DNA of 36,722 bases. Source: Acidobacteriota bacterium (GTDB lineage Bacteria > Acidobacteriota > Vicinamibacteria > Vicinamibacterales > UBA8438). Under the pieces are notes generated by a model. That model made no database searches and had not been told where the DNA came from. It worked only from the letters and a program-made list of their open reading frames with translations. A program made the translations under genes and the position numbers. The stretch is taken from the NCBI GenBank assembly GCA_009861545.1, contig VXME01000163.1, forward strand, positions 1 through 36,722, in the 5' to 3' direction. Below are positions 4,024 through 10,613 of the stretch, in pieces; the first letter of the stretch is position 1, and the number at the start of each line of letters is the position of its first letter.

Positions 4024-5016
4024 TCACATGTAGTGGGACACGACACCGAGAGTGCCGCGGGGAAGGTCGTTCTCGGTGCAGGCCCTGTCGAGAGTGCTCT
4101 GGATGTCGGGACGGCTGAGCTGCTTCAGAGAATCGTCGTACTCCGGAGCCGGGAACAGGAACCGGGCCGAGAACATGTGACCGCAGAGTGCCCACTGTCG
4201 GGAGTTCGGGAAGCGAACGTGGGCGATACGGTAGGGCTCAAGGTCCTGTTTGCCGCGTGGGTTGCCATCGTCGTCCTGCTTTGCAAGTGACAGGCCGTGC
4301 TGCGCATGTGGTCTGAAGTGTCTTGAGGAGTCGTCACCCCAGAGGTCAACGACTTTCAGCCAGGTTCTTCCTTCCGGGCGAGCGTCGTATATGGAAATAT
4401 AGCCGTGTTCCCTCTCGCTCGTTGTCGCTACGAAACAAGAGCCGCGCGTTTCGAAGTCGTGAGTGGCGAACCAGATCGCGGTGTAGAGGTTGCGTACGAC
4501 GTCGAGCCACGGGGTCCTGATTCCATAATGTTGAAGCACCGCACCCAAGTGCTCTGTTCCTTGCCACCGAGTGCCCCTGAGCGGGGGGTGTAGTTCCTGC
4601 AGTCGGTTCAGAAAGCACTTGTAAGCAGCCCAACGTTGTTCCAATTCGTTTCCGGCGTTCCGAAACAAAGATGGAACCGAGCTCGGAAAACACCGCGTTT
4701 CTCCTCGGAGAAAAACTGGGCGACAGGGGCCACTGCAGAATGCGATAAACGACGCCAAGACGGCCGGATCATCTATCCGTATCTGCGTTGGATTGTCGCT
4801 GCACGGGACTACGACCGAGCCGTCATGCTTATGGTAGTCGTTCTTGAACTTCTGCGCGGGGGTCTGCTGGTCTCTCCGATCGCTCACTTCCGCCATTCTC
4901 CTCTGCAGGTGCCTTTGGTAGTCCTTGATCGTGCTACCGAAAATCAAAAATCGAGGACGAGACCGTTCGCGACGTTCGCTACTGCTTCTTGTACTGGAAC
5001 GGATAGCTGACGACAA
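4024..5016 (-). CDS. FRG domain-containing protein
   Basis: This protein of up to 330 residues contains an FRG domain. The signature appears here as VFLRGE near residue 101-106 followed by PSLFR, and the second block LQHYGIRTPWLDVVRNLYTA at about 161-180 matches the family's QHYG...LD pattern. FRG proteins have no settled biochemical role and are often found in accessory regions. The start is uncertain: the ATG at 5016 overlaps the end of the DUF1592 gene by 38 bases, and a later ATG at 4896 follows an AGAGGAGA sequence very closely. Base composition differs from the neighbours (for example 30 of 60 bases are G or C at 4621-4680), which suggests recent transfer. Confidence 0.8.
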   Translation of the reverse strand: MSSAIRSSTRSSSERRERSRPRFLIFGSTIKDYQRHLQRRMAEVSDRRDQQTPAQKFKNDYHKHDGSVVVPCSDNPTQIRIDDPAVLASFIAFCSGPCRPVFLRGETRCFPSSVPSLFRNAGNELEQRWAAYKCFLNRLQELHPPLRGTRWQGTEHLGAVLQHYGIRTPWLDVVRNLYTAIWFATHDFETRGSCFVATTSEREHGYISIYDARPEGRTWLKVVDLWGDDSSRHFRPHAQHGLSLAKQDDDGNPRGKQDLEPYRIAHVRFPNSRQWALCGHMFSARFLFPAPEYDDSLKQLSRPDIQSTLDRACTENDLPRGTLGVVSHYM

Positions 5017-6994
5017 TCTCCTTCACCAGCGTCTGGAACCGGTAGTCGTCCGCCTCGAGCGCGGCGAGGATCTTCCGCAGGGCCGGCTCGTCGTAGTACT
5101 CGAGCTGGCGGCCGAGGGCGTAGGCGAGCATCTTCGATGCGGTCTGCCGGACGAGGTCGTGGTGGCGTTCCTCGAGGAGCGTGCGCTTCAGGCCGGCCGG
5201 GCCGGCGAACGCGGTGCCGCTCGGTAGCGAGCCGGCGGCCTGGATCGGCGTGTAGGTGTTGCGGTAGAAGCGCTTCTCGGTGAAGACGTTGGTGTCTTCG
5301 ATGATGCGGATCTCGTCGGCTTCCTCCTCGGTCTCCACGCGCTCCCGGAAGTGGTAGCTGTCGCGCCAGCGGCCGAAGTAGTCGAAGTTTTCCAGGCTGA
5401 AGCCGATCGGGTCGATGCGGCTGTGGCAGGCGCTGCACGTGGGATTGCTGGAGTGCATCTCCAGCTTCTCGCGGAAGCTGAGCCGGCGCAGGTCGCCGAG
5501 CTCCTCGGACAGGACGCCCGCGCCCGGCGGCGGGGGCGGGGGCGGGGTGCCGAGCAGCACGTCGAGGATGTAGTGGCCGCGCTTGACCGGGCTCGTGTCC
5601 TTGTAGTTCGACGTCAGGGCCAGGACGCTGCCGTGCCCGAGGTAGCCGCCCCGGTTCGGGTCGTCGAGCGCCACGCGGCGCATGTGCTCGCCCTCTATTC
5701 CCGTCATGTCGTAGAGAGTGGTGGCGAGCTCCTCGTTGACGTAGGTGTAGTCGGCGTCGATGAGCCGGCGGATGGGCTGGTTGTCGCGGACGAGCGACAG
5801 GAAGAACAGCGACGACTCGTCGCGCATCGCCGTCATCAGCGTGTCGGTGCACCACGGGTTGTCGATGGGGTCGAGCCAGATGCGCGAGCCGACGTGCTGG
5901 AAGCCGAGCCACTGGGCGGCGAAGCTGGTGCCGAGGGTGTTGGCTTTCGGGTCGGCCAGCATCCGGTCGACCTGCGCTTCGAGCACGGCCGGGTCGCTCA
6001 GCGCGCCGCGGCGCGCGAGGTCACGGAGCTCGGCGTCCGGCATCGAGGACCACAGGAAGTAGGAGAGGCGCGAGGCCAGGTCCCAGTCGCTGACGCGGTA
6101 GGGCTCACCGTCCGCGGACGCGGGCGGCGTCTCGACGCGCAGCAGGAACTTCGGCGAGATGAGTATCGCCTGCAGGACCACCTTCACGGCGTCCTGGAAC
6201 GCCTCCCCCGCCTCGCGCGCCGCGCGGTACCGGCCGAGCGCCCGCGTCACGTCCGCCTCGCTCGGCGGACGGCGCCAGGCCCGCCCGAGAAAGTGGCGCA
6301 GCACCAACTCGGCCGCTTCCTCGTCGCCGATGCCGCCGCCGGGCCTGGCGATGAACACCAGCTCATGCGCGCGCCGTTCGGCGTCGGTCGCCGGCTCAGA
6401 CGGCAGCATCAGCTCGACGACCCGCTCGGCCGCCGCGATGTAGCGCTCCATCAGCGTCGACTCGAGGAACAAGGTGTTGGCCGTGTTGTCGAAGCCGCTC
6501 GCGCCGACCAGCTCGGCGGGGAAACGGTCGGTGAGGGTGAAGTTCGCGCCGACGAGGTCGCGCAGCGTGTTGTCGAGCTCGCGGTGCGTCAGCCGCTTCA
6601 CCGGCTCGTAGCCCGGGTCGTCGACCGTGGAGTAGTCGAAGTTGTCGATGGAGTCCGACAGCAGGGCGTGGAGCCTCTCGCGCTCGGCGCTGGCGGGCTG
6701 CGGCGCGCCGGCGGGCGGCATCTTGCCTACCTCGACGGCGTCGATCACCCGCGTCCAGGCCTCGCGGTTGCGCACCAGCGGGCGTTGGGCGATCAACCCG
6801 TCGAGATTGACCCCGGCGGTTTGCGTCTCCGGGCCGTGGCAGCCGAAGCAGTACTGCTCCAGCAAGGGGGCCGCGGGATGCGGGGCCCCGTCGTCGACGC
6901 CCGGACCGGCCGTGGTTTGCGCGGACGCGCGCCCCGCGCCTGCCGCGGCAGCGAGGATGAGCGCGAACATGGTGACGCGTTGGAGCGTGCTCAT
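4979..6994 (-). CDS. DUF1592/DUF1588/DUF1585-type c-haem protein (shorter form)
   Basis: This is a 671-residue exported protein. The ATG at 6994 starts a clear Sec signal peptide ending at about ASA-Q. A CFGCH haem-binding motif follows at residues 49-53, then DUF1587 (TVDDPGYEPVKRLTHRELDN region), DUF1595 and DUF1592 (LSYFLWSSMPDAELR), DUF1588 (LGHGSVLALTSNYKDTSPVKRG, with a proline run PPPPPPPG) and a second CSACH motif leading into the C-terminal DUF1585 (FQTLVKEIVVSYPFQY). This is the planctomycete-type cytochrome architecture. It is about 130 residues shorter than the homologue at 8199, mainly because a central beta-rich insert is missing. The VapBC module lies directly upstream and the FRG gene overlaps its end. 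The substrate is unknown. Confidence 0.92.
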   Translation of the reverse strand: MSTLQRVTMFALILAAAAGAGRASAQTTAGPGVDDGAPHPAAPLLEQYCFGCHGPETQTAGVNLDGLIAQRPLVRNREAWTRVIDAVEVGKMPPAGAPQPASAERERLHALLSDSIDNFDYSTVDDPGYEPVKRLTHRELDNTLRDLVGANFTLTDRFPAELVGASGFDNTANTLFLESTLMERYIAAAERVVELMLPSEPATDAERRAHELVFIARPGGGIGDEEAAELVLRHFLGRAWRRPPSEADVTRALGRYRAAREAGEAFQDAVKVVLQAILISPKFLLRVETPPASADGEPYRVSDWDLASRLSYFLWSSMPDAELRDLARRGALSDPAVLEAQVDRMLADPKANTLGTSFAAQWLGFQHVGSRIWLDPIDNPWCTDTLMTAMRDESSLFFLSLVRDNQPIRRLIDADYTYVNEELATTLYDMTGIEGEHMRRVALDDPNRGGYLGHGSVLALTSNYKDTSPVKRGHYILDVLLGTPPPPPPPGAGVLSEELGDLRRLSFREKLEMHSSNPTCSACHSRIDPIGFSLENFDYFGRWRDSYHFRERVETEEEADEIRIIEDTNVFTEKRFYRNTYTPIQAAGSLPSGTAFAGPAGLKRTLLEERHHDLVRQTASKMLAYALGRQLEYYDEPALRKILAALEADDYRFQTLVKEIVVSYPFQYKKQ

Positions 6995-7064
6995 GGCCAA
7001 ATATGTCGGTGGAAGGTGCAACGTTAGCACAGGGCGACCTGTCTGCCTCGCGTCGCGCGTTCCG

Positions 7065-7424
7065 TCAGCGGGCCGCGACGCCAAGCTCGCCTGCGACCGT
7101 CTCGAGGCGCTTGTCGAGGGTCCACAGCACGCATCTCTCCAGGAAGGCGGACGCCAGCAGATGCATGTCGATCCAGCCGAGACCGCGCCCGTGAAGGCGT
7201 CGGCTGCGAACGAGTTGCAGGACTTCCTCGTGTTCCGCCACCTCGGCCTGCGGGAGCGCGGCGAGCAGGTGCAGGAAGTGATCGCGATCGGACAGGGAGC
7301 CGCACGCGAGCTCCCCGACGACGAACGGATGACCTAGCACCATGCCTTCGCGCAGCAGCGTGGCGAGCTCGTGGTCCTCGTTGCGCAGGTGGTCTACCCA
7401 GACCGACGTGTCCGCCAGGATCAT
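7065..7424 (-). CDS. vapC: VapC-type PIN-domain ribonuclease toxin
   Basis: This 119-residue PIN-domain protein starts MILADTSVWVDHLR, with the first catalytic Asp at D5. VGELACGS carries the conserved Glu near residue 38, GRGLGWIDMHLLAS gives the third acidic position, and LWTLDKR near the C terminus gives the fourth. VapC toxins are magnesium-dependent RNases that cut tRNA or rRNA. The start codon overlaps the antitoxin stop by four bases (ATGA at 7421-7424), which indicates translational coupling. The length is close to normal for the family and it appears intact. Confidence 0.92.
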   Translation of the reverse strand: MILADTSVWVDHLRNEDHELATLLREGMVLGHPFVVGELACGSLSDRDHFLHLLAALPQAEVAEHEEVLQLVRSRRLHGRGLGWIDMHLLASAFLERCVLWTLDKRLETVAGELGVAAR

Positions 7425-7906
7425 CGTCCGCCCGACGGCGACCGGCGCCGGGAGATGGGACGCAGGTCCTTCTCGCTGCCGCCCAGGGCCGCCAGCCGGC
7501 GGGCGCTCTCTCGCGCTATCAACGCTTGCAGCCCCTGTCGCACGAGGGAAGTCCTCTCGTCGACACCGGTCAGTCGCGCGGCTTGCCGGATCAACTCGTC
7601 ATCGATGTGGATCGTCGTTCCACGATGGTCCGAATCCGCGTCAACGAACTCGCCCCTGGGACACTCCGGGGGCATCGGGGAGACGATGTCGCCGAGGATA
7701 CGGATCTTGTCCCGATCACGGCCGAAGAACAGACCCGGGGACTTCTCCCGGTACGGCGCCAGCCGCGATACCGGCCGGCCGTTCTTGGTGATGACGATCT
7801 CTTCGCCGCTCTCGGCGACCTCGTCCATGAGCTTGAGGCACTTCGCCTTGAACTCGGACGCCTTGATGGTCCGAGTACCGGTCGAACCGCCGGTATCGGT
7901 CTTCAC
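7421..7906 (-). CDS. Fused Phd/YefM-VapB double antitoxin
   Basis: At 161 residues this is about twice the size of a normal antitoxin. Residues about 13-75 are a complete Phd/YefM antitoxin (TIKASEFKAKCLKLMDEV, then EEIVITKNGRPVSRLAPYRE). Residues about 96-150 are a VapB of the kind paired with this VapC (TTIHIDDELIRQAARLTGV, then SARRLAALGGSE). Both antitoxin types are known partners of PIN toxins, and both are normally free-standing. The single open frame with no stop between them argues for a real fusion. The VapB half is next to vapC and probably neutralises it; the Phd half would add a second DNA-binding and dimerisation unit. Confidence 0.85.
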   Translation of the reverse strand: MKTDTGGSTGTRTIKASEFKAKCLKLMDEVAESGEEIVITKNGRPVSRLAPYREKSPGLFFGRDRDKIRILGDIVSPMPPECPRGEFVDADSDHRGTTIHIDDELIRQAARLTGVDERTSLVRQGLQALIARESARRLAALGGSEKDLRPISRRRSPSGGR

Positions 7907-7944
7907 GATTTGCCTCCCGGAAGCGACATTCGTGCCTCTATCTT

Positions 7945-7972
7945 ACCATGGTCGTGACCATGGTCATATGGT
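7945..7972 (-). promoter_or_regulatory. Triple repeat, probable operator of the fused antitoxin-vapC operon
   Basis: ACCATGGTC occurs at 7945-7953 and again at 7957-7965, starting 12 bases apart, and a degenerate third copy CATATGGT follows at 7965-7972. Each unit is itself nearly palindromic around CCATGG. The array lies 39-66 bases upstream of the antitoxin start at 7906, where TA autoregulation sites are expected. Regular spacing close to one helical turn suits cooperative binding of antitoxin dimers. This is inferred from pattern only. Confidence 0.5.
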
Positions 7973-8113
7973 GGCGGGCGAGTCCGTGTGTCGGGCGAAT
8001 GCTCCGGCGGCGGCAGGACGACTTCTGCCTCTGAGCCGGCTGCGGGGTCGGGTTGCCGCTCGCGCCGGGAAATCCGGACGGAAATCGGGCTAGCGGTCCG
8101 GTCGCCGGGCGTG

Positions 8114-8198: not shown

Positions 8199-10613
8199 AT
8201 GGCCACCATGCGCCGGCTGAAGTTGCGCTCCGCGGTGATCGTTTGCGTGTCTCTGGCGGCGGGCGCCGTCGGTCCGGCAACGGCGGCCGCGCAGAGTGCT
8301 GCGCCCGGCGAGGCCGTATCCGCCGACCAGGCGGTCGTCCAACGCTACTGCGTCACCTGCCACAACGACCGGCTCGAGACCGGCGGCCTTTCGCTGCAGA
8401 ACGTCGACGTCGCGGACGTCGCGGCGCACCGCGACGTGTGGGAGAAGGTGGTGCGGAAGATGCGCGCCGGCGCGATGCCGCCGCGCCCGCGCCCCCGTCC
8501 GGACGACGCCACCTACGCGCGCGTGCTGGCTTCCATCGAGACGGCCCTGGACGCGGCCGCCGAGGCCACGCCCGACCCCGGCCGCACGGCGACGTTCCGC
8601 CGTATGAACCGGACCGAGTACCAGAACGCCGTGCGCGACATGTTGGACCTCGACATCGACGTCACGGCGCTCCTGCCGCGTGACGACTCCGCTTTCGGGT
8701 TCGACAACGTCAACGCCGGCGGGCTGTCGCCGACCCTGATGGAGCGCTACCTAGCGGCGGCGCGGCGGGTCAGCGGGCTGGCGGTGGGGAGCGACCTGCC
8801 GGCGCCGGGCAGCCGCGTGGTGGTCGTGCCCGCGGACCGCACCCAGGAGGATCACGTCGCCGGCCTGCCGTTCGGCACGCGCGGCGGGACCGCGGTCGAT
8901 CACACGTTTCCCGCCGACGGCGAGTACGAGATCCAGGTCCGGCTGCAGCGGAACCGCAACGAGAACGTCGAGGGGCTGACCGAGCCGCACGACGTGGAGA
9001 TCACCCTCGATGGAGACCGGCTCGCCCTGTTCACCATGGAGCCGAGCCGGAACTACGTCATGCAGGCCAACGCCGCGTACTACGCGGACGAGGGCATCGA
9101 CAATCACCTCAATGTGCGCATCCCCGTGCCGGCGGGACCGCACGTGGTGGGTGCGACCTTCATCAAGAAGAACTCGGCGCTCATCGAGACGACCCGGCAG
9201 CCTTACGACGCCCACTTCAATATGGACCGGCATCCCCGGCAGCAACCGGCGGTGCGGTCGGTATCGATCGTCGGTCCCTTCGATCCGACCGGGGTGGGGG
9301 AGACGCCGAGCCGCGAGCGCATCTTCTCGTGCCGTCCCCCGTCCGAGGCCGCCGACGACGAGGCCGAGGAGTGTGCGACCGCGATCATCGCCGGGCTGGC
9401 GCGGCGCGCCTATCGGCGCCCGGTCACGGTCGACGACCTCGATCAGCTCGTCTCCTTCTATCACCGGGGCTATACCGCGGGCGGCTTCGAGACGGGCATC
9501 GAGACGGCGCTGCGCGCGCTGCTCGCGAGCCCCGAGTTCCTGTTCCGCATCGAGCGCGATCCGGCCGGCGTGGCGCCCGGGGCGCCCTACCGGGTCAGCG
9601 ACCTGGAGTTGGCTTCCCGGCTGTCGTTCTTTCTCTGGAGCAGCGTGCCCGACGACGAGTTGCTCGACATGGCGGCGGCCCGCCGGCTGAGCGACCCGGC
9701 CGTGCTCCGGGCGCAGGTGCGGCGCATGCTGGCCGATCCGCGGGCCGAGACGCTGACGACCAACTTCGCCTCGCAGTGGCTGCATTTGCGGAACCTGGAC
9801 GCGGTGCGGCCGGACGCCCGGCTGTTCCCGGACTTCGACGACAACCTGCGGCAGAGCTTCCGCCGCGAAACGGAGCTGCTGTTCCAGAGTGTCCTCGAAG
9901 AGGACCGCAGCGTCGTCGACCTGCTGACGGCGGAGTACACCTTCGTCAACGAGCGGGTGGCGCGCCACTACGGCTTCCCGGGGGTCTACGGTGACCACTT
10001 CCGGCGCGTGGACCTGCCCGCGGGCAGCCCCCGGGCCGGCCTGCTCGGGCACGGCAGCATCCTCACGGTGACCTCGTACGCCACGCGGACGTCCCCGGTG
10101 CTGCGGGGCAAGTGGATTCTCGAGAACCTGCTCGGGACGCCGCCGCCGGCGCCGCCCGCGAACGTGCCGCCGCTCGACGAGACCCGCTCGAACACGCGCA
10201 TCGTCTCGATGCGCGAGCGGATGGAGGCGCATCGCCAGAATCCGCAGTGCGCCGTCTGCCACCGGATCATGGATCCGGCCGGCCTGTCGATGGAGAACTT
10301 CGACGCCATCGGGCGCTGGCGGGACGTCGAGGGCGGTGCGGCCATCGACGCGGCGGGCAACCTGCCGGGCGGCGAGGACTTCGACGGCGTGGCGGGCCTG
10401 CGCGAAGCGGTGCTCGATCGCCCCGAGGTGTTCGTCGGCACCGTGGCGGAGAAGCTGTTGACCTACGCGCTCGGCCGCGGCCTCGACCACGCCGACGCAC
10501 CGGCGCTTCGCGCGATAACCCGAGCGGCGGCGGCCGACGACTATCGGCTGTCGTCGCTCATCCTCGGCATCGTAGAGAGCACGCCCTTCCAGATGAGGAG
10601 ATCCCAGTCATGA
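8199..10613 (+). CDS. DUF1587/DUF1592/DUF1588/DUF1585 c-haem protein (long form)
   Basis: This is an 804-residue exported protein with a signal peptide ending near residue 32 (ATAAAQ) and a CVTCH haem motif at 51-55. Next come a DUF1587 segment (FRRMNRTEYQNAVRDML) and a central beta-rich insert of roughly 150 residues (about 205-350) that looks like a carbohydrate-binding type module. DUF1595, DUF1592 (LSFFLWSSVPDDELL), DUF1588 (LGHGSILTVTSYATRTSPVLRG) and a CAVCH motif leading into DUF1585 follow. Starts at 8199 and 8208 are both served by GAAGGA sites. The stop overlaps the downstream DUF1552 ATG, so the two are translated together. A periplasmic electron-transfer or oxidative role is likely from the haem motifs; the substrate is unknown. 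Confidence 0.93.
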   Translation: MATMRRLKLRSAVIVCVSLAAGAVGPATAAAQSAAPGEAVSADQAVVQRYCVTCHNDRLETGGLSLQNVDVADVAAHRDVWEKVVRKMRAGAMPPRPRPRPDDATYARVLASIETALDAAAEATPDPGRTATFRRMNRTEYQNAVRDMLDLDIDVTALLPRDDSAFGFDNVNAGGLSPTLMERYLAAARRVSGLAVGSDLPAPGSRVVVVPADRTQEDHVAGLPFGTRGGTAVDHTFPADGEYEIQVRLQRNRNENVEGLTEPHDVEITLDGDRLALFTMEPSRNYVMQANAAYYADEGIDNHLNVRIPVPAGPHVVGATFIKKNSALIETTRQPYDAHFNMDRHPRQQPAVRSVSIVGPFDPTGVGETPSRERIFSCRPPSEAADDEAEECATAIIAGLARRAYRRPVTVDDLDQLVSFYHRGYTAGGFETGIETALRALLASPEFLFRIERDPAGVAPGAPYRVSDLELASRLSFFLWSSVPDDELLDMAAARRLSDPAVLRAQVRRMLADPRAETLTTNFASQWLHLRNLDAVRPDARLFPDFDDNLRQSFRRETELLFQSVLEEDRSVVDLLTAEYTFVNERVARHYGFPGVYGDHFRRVDLPAGSPRAGLLGHGSILTVTSYATRTSPVLRGKWILENLLGTPPPAPPANVPPLDETRSNTRIVSMRERMEAHRQNPQCAVCHRIMDPAGLSMENFDAIGRWRDVEGGAAIDAAGNLPGGEDFDGVAGLREAVLDRPEVFVGTVAEKLLTYALGRGLDHADAPALRAITRAAAADDYRLSSLILGIVESTPFQMRRSQS

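Follow-up and report, generated by a model that had tools for sequence, protein, structure and literature searches.

A Phd/YefM-VapB fusion antitoxin upstream of vapC in Acidobacteriota, best read as partner swapping caught part-way

INTRODUCTION

Type II antitoxins bind DNA with an N-terminal fold and the toxin with a C-terminal tail, and they have swapped toxins many times. The intermediate steps of this partner swapping are, to our knowledge, rarely visible. Makarova and colleagues listed PIN toxins with antitoxins of the PHD and RHH types and described antitoxins with added DNA-binding domains; composite antitoxins include COG2442 fused to a winged HTH (Rv2018) and HicB fused to RHH or Xre (PMC2701414). 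TASmania describes how antitoxin and toxin families pair in a mix-and-match manner (PMC6504116), and according to the NetFlax paper (PanA, Phd-C), fusion or exchange of neutralising segments is a plausible partner-swapping route (PMC10440598). In a limited literature search that covered chimeric, hybrid, fused and tandem antitoxins, no fusion of Phd with VapB was found.

The locus described here resembles two kinds of module. Phd/YefM-PIN (VapBC-like) modules of sponge symbionts (genomes G003, G011 and G019) have a Phd that is 81 to 85% identical to the Phd half of the fusion (91% in G013) and the same operator and promoter layout, but their Phd is a solo protein of ~94 amino acids, paired with another PIN toxin that is absent from the fusion locus; this partner of solo Phd is called PIN1 below. 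VapB (PF09957)-VapC modules of Acidobacteriota (G010, G011 and G023) have the same gene order, with 68 to 71% identity for VapB and ~65% for VapC, but possess their own VapB start codon and a TGCATA/ATGCATATG element, both of which are lost in the fusion, where Phd stands in front. In many sponge-symbiont phyla, Phd is normally accompanied by PIN1, whereas VapB-VapC travels separately.

RESULTS

One reading frame contains a Phd/YefM and a VapB domain

The window, the whole stretch of 36,722 nucleotides that was analysed, comes from an uncultured species of Acidobacteriota designated G000; G001, likewise uncultured, G002 and G003 belong to the same genus. A single frame of 161 codons, with GTG as the start codon, encodes a Phd/YefM domain and, after it, a VapB domain, and lies upstream of an intact vapC gene. 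The features of this operon are as follows.

7421-7906, minus strand: fusion antitoxin, 161 amino acids (reading frame, Pfam domains and same architecture in G001)
7664-7906, minus strand: Phd/YefM half, residues 1 to 81, C-terminal tail lost (PF02604; alignment with solo Phd proteins, that of G003 among them)
7628-7663, minus strand: junction segment, residues 82 to 93, CPRGEFVDADSD, carried by no relative
7424-7627, minus strand: VapB half, residues 94 to 161, with the RHH strand including TT, two helices and a GGSE..L.P..RRR tail (PF09957; alignment with solo VapB)
7913-7917, minus strand: Shine-Dalgarno sequence GGAGG of the fusion gene (from the sequence)
7065-7424, minus strand: VapC PIN toxin, 119 amino acids, intact (PF01850; pN/pS versus G001; acidic positions)

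Both domains matched Pfam above the gathering cut-offs, PF02604 (Phd/YefM) at residues 12 to 54 with 36.5 bits (cut-off, 29.8) and PF09957 (VapB) at residues 97 to 137 with 48.7 bits (cut-off, 23.4). The fusion gene overlaps vapC by the four bases ATGA at 7421-7424, a VapB-type placement directly before vapC. The original prediction of Phd/YefM and VapB in one 161-residue frame, coupled to one VapC, is thus borne out. It had also taken both antitoxins to be complete, which is true of VapB apart from the former start, where ATG has become CGT (solo VapB relatives start with HMRTTLNIDD; the match covers profile positions 3 to 43 of 47), but not of Phd. Alignment with solo Phd proteins revealed that the Phd tail is absent after residue 81 (SPMPPE); in G003, this tail reads WYAKADDSDEDLF, and the solo Phd ends with GDIVSPMPPEWYAKADDSDEDLF. 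VapC matched PF01850 with 40.6 bits (cut-off, 23.6), and its acidic residues D5, E38, D86 and D104 are all present. PADLOC gave no match, and no relative of VapC or PIN1 was found in the PDB at an E value of 0.01.

A source for the 36-base junction segment was sought, but only weak matches, to two PIN1 relatives and the 5' end of phd, were obtained (uncorrected p, 0.01 to 0.04). In the predicted monomer models, a disordered linker joins the Phd core to two VapB helices; overall confidence was low (pTM, 0.30 to 0.32). Internal translation starts for VapB alone were considered and rejected; the in-frame codons ATG78 and TTG105 both lack a Shine-Dalgarno sequence.

A second fusion and an unfused relative at the same place

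The two-domain architecture was sought in 100 related genomes and was indeed found in G001, in synteny, between the same two divergent flanking genes. The G001 fusion is 83% identical over residues 9 to 161, and its VapC is 89% identical to that of G000. The junctions, however, are different: G000 reads SPMPPE/CPRGEFVDADSDHRGTTIHIDDE and G001 reads SPMPPEWYEKADDSDEE/LVREAARL. G001 keeps the Phd tail (WYEKADDSDE) and has no VapB DNA-binding strand, whereas G000 is the reverse. All 16 solo VapB proteins compared share the TT pair of the RHH strand, which is present in G000 but deleted in G001, where the PF09957 match starts at profile position 8. Both fusions retain the VapB helices and the GGSE..L.P..RRR tail.

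At the syntenic place, G003 has an unfused Phd of 94 amino acids, its own PIN1 and, ~30 bases on, a remnant of vapC (L010:2208-2318) that comprises the C-terminal third, contains a 5-base frameshift and diverges at a raised rate (dN, 0.20; dS, 0.6 versus G000). This arrangement gives good support to the earlier suggestion that the fusion is a deletion scar joining neighbouring modules. In G005, of another genus of the same family, the flanking genes are only ~170 bases apart and the island is absent. In G002, the module is missing and the flanking genes have no close orthologues, so this genome is uninformative. The public records WTFV01000134.1 and CATQHX010000052.1 are identical to the G001 and G003 sequences and are therefore not counted as extra cases.

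7030-8110, no strand assigned: toxin-antitoxin island, approximate extent, between two divergent DUF1592-family genes (empty site in G005)

The flanking divergent genes (window positions 4979-7000 and 8199-10613) encode DUF1592/1588/1585/1595/1587 domains, a family with ~22 to 42 copies per related genome. Synonymous divergence was lower in vapB and vapC than in phd, but separate histories of VapB/VapC and Phd were rejected as an explanation, since the flanking genes on both sides show the same regional pattern.

In a genome fragmented into 174 contigs, two frames might have been merged by a sequencing or assembly error. Since the independently assembled second species has a fusion at the same place and the unfused relative carries, in place of the junction, ~400 bases of toxin gene, such an error is very unlikely, and no single base change gives either junction.

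The fusion is rare

No further fusion was found among the best 80 loci of a scan of ~85,000 species, where Phd homologues were solo and mostly followed by PIN1, or in a sample of 396 genomes of the phylum. No plasmid record covers 80% of the fusion. An intact four-gene tandem of Phd, PIN1, VapB and VapC was not found in any genome sampled. Long matches suggestive of tandem Phd and VapB in G350, L005 and L033 turned out to be ordinary Phd-PIN or spurious alignments. The fusion is real, rare and restricted to one genus.

Other arrangements were seen as well. In Nitrospira/Nitrospirales (L095:4004-5337, L115:7-1534 and L104:401-1321), a Phd relative adjoins a VapB-VapC relative (47 to 49% identity) on the opposite strand, with PIN1 accompanying Phd in L095 and L115; the two module families therefore lie side by side elsewhere too. 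Tandem phd genes are present in L041:4028-4574, L044:307-871, L079:3589-4117, L109:4010-5469 and L110:4010-5467; in L041 and L044, a single PIN1 gene follows two phd copies, the antitoxin having been duplicated within this module family. In L042, L045, L053, L059, L064, L065 and L108, no PIN1 was detected next to the Phd homologue.

The Phd operator is kept and the VapB element is lost

Upstream of the fusion gene lies the following element.

7945-7967, no strand assigned: Phd-type operator ACCATGGTCGTGACCATGGTCAT, within a sigma-70-like promoter (core common to Phd upstream regions; kept in G000, G001 and G003)

The core ACCATGGT was present in 76 of 106 upstream regions of Phd relatives. The operator has the form ACCATGG...GACCATGGT and in Phd-PIN1 loci sits between a -35-like TTGACC/TGACC and a -10-like element. 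Solo vapB genes have, in place of the Phd operator, a TGCATA...ATGCATATG element around the start. This element and the VapB start ATG are missing from both fusions, whereas the Phd promoter and operator are kept in both. A composite operator, as had been proposed, is not supported: of the two operators only that of Phd is left, that of VapB having been lost, and G001 is without the VapB DNA-binding strand.

Selection on the operon

In a comparison of G000 with G001, the Phd half had a pN/pS of 0.10 (p = 1e-8) and VapC one of 0.33 (p = 0.0005); VapB and VapC taken together gave 0.41 (p = 0.0009). The Phd half and VapC are under purifying selection, and the locus is therefore more than a dead scar. 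For the VapB part alone, the value was 0.62, which was not significant over 57 codons; this weak constraint counts against the explanation favoured below, as do the low confidence of the monomer models and the failure to find an intact four-gene tandem.

DISCUSSION

An ancestral array of the order Phd, PIN1, VapB, VapC is indicated by the shared neighbours, by the vapC remnant that follows PIN1 in G003 and by the unoccupied site in G005. An ancestor of the genus would have carried the Phd-PIN1 and VapB-VapC modules in tandem, inserted between the two flanking genes, and a different piece was likely lost in each of three lineages. In the G000 lineage, a deletion would have removed PIN1 entirely, together with the end of phd and the promoter, operator and start of vapB, and would have joined the antitoxins in frame; in the G001 lineage, a separate deletion with other end points would have had the same outcome. 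Since the junctions are mutually exclusive, two independent in-frame deletions, and hence two fusion events rather than one, are the simplest account. A single ancestral in-frame fusion of whole Phd with whole VapB, trimmed differently later in G000 and G001, would fit the finding that the same partners are joined at the same place, both times in frame, in species of one genus. It would, however, need three deletions instead of two, and no species with the long fusion was found among the 100 related genomes, the best 80 loci of the scan or the 396 genomes of the phylum; we regard it as possible but rather unlikely.

The fusion would act as a single antitoxin for VapC. With the N-terminal DNA-binding and C-terminal toxin-binding layout of type II antitoxins, the likeliest working is that dimers formed by the Phd half repress the operon at the remaining Phd operator, while the VapB half binds and blocks VapC via its C-terminal tail. 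This division of labour is the most probable one by analogy. A decaying locus, with the fusion as a non-functional deletion scar kept by chance, would fit the weak constraint on the VapB part and the complete loss of VapBC in G003. But comparison of the two species reveals purifying selection on Phd and VapC, the acidic residues of VapC, the operator, the Shine-Dalgarno sequence and the ATGA coupling are all kept, and an active VapC is not expected to last without an antitoxin; chance persistence therefore appears unlikely. The original prediction had also raised neutralisation of a second toxin: besides the adjacent VapC, the fusion would bind a PIN or Doc toxin of Phd type encoded elsewhere in the genome. 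The genome does encode other PIN toxins, and the Phd tail is kept in G001. An orphan Phd-type PIN toxin was sought, but PIN1 is absent at the locus, its closest relative in the genome of the window is only 39% identical, and the Phd tail, the usual neutralising part, is lost in G000. In the absence of a close PIN1 and of the tail, neutralisation of a second toxin is unlikely for G000, and a bifunctional antitoxin seems to us highly improbable. The G001 fusion might bind a PIN1 arriving from outside. The genome of the window has no close VapB paralogue.

Taken as a whole, the best explanation is a tandem ancestor, separate in-frame deletions and a chimeric antitoxin in which Phd represses and the VapB tail neutralises, to which we assign a probability of roughly 0.72. 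It is doubtful that in G000 both DNA-binding and dimerising folds, Phd and RHH, are active in one chain, so that chains or higher-order complexes might bridge operators; if they were, G001 would already be reduced to the Phd fold alone. We know of no type II system with such an operator-bridging layout of two active folds.

The fusion is like the known composite antitoxins (PMC2701414) in being an antitoxin with an added DNA-binding domain, but both of its parts are antitoxins, from two different families, and a sister species still has the donor arrangement. As in the partner swapping described for PanA and Phd-C, a neutralising segment is joined to another DNA-binding domain, but the Phd-VapB event can be read from close relatives, apparently twice (PMC10440598). 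To judge from the sequences, the DNA-binding part of Phd now appears to run the operon of VapB's toxin, and the fusion is best read as partner swapping caught part-way, with novelty as a variant rather than as a kind. At one locus, across related species, the donor module, the lost toxin, the remnant of a second toxin and two junctions are preserved, and the swapping route thereby becomes testable by comparing natural forms. The findings suggest that, once the VapB promoter was lost, in-frame fusion was the way to retain control of VapC; this would account for the origin of two different fusions.
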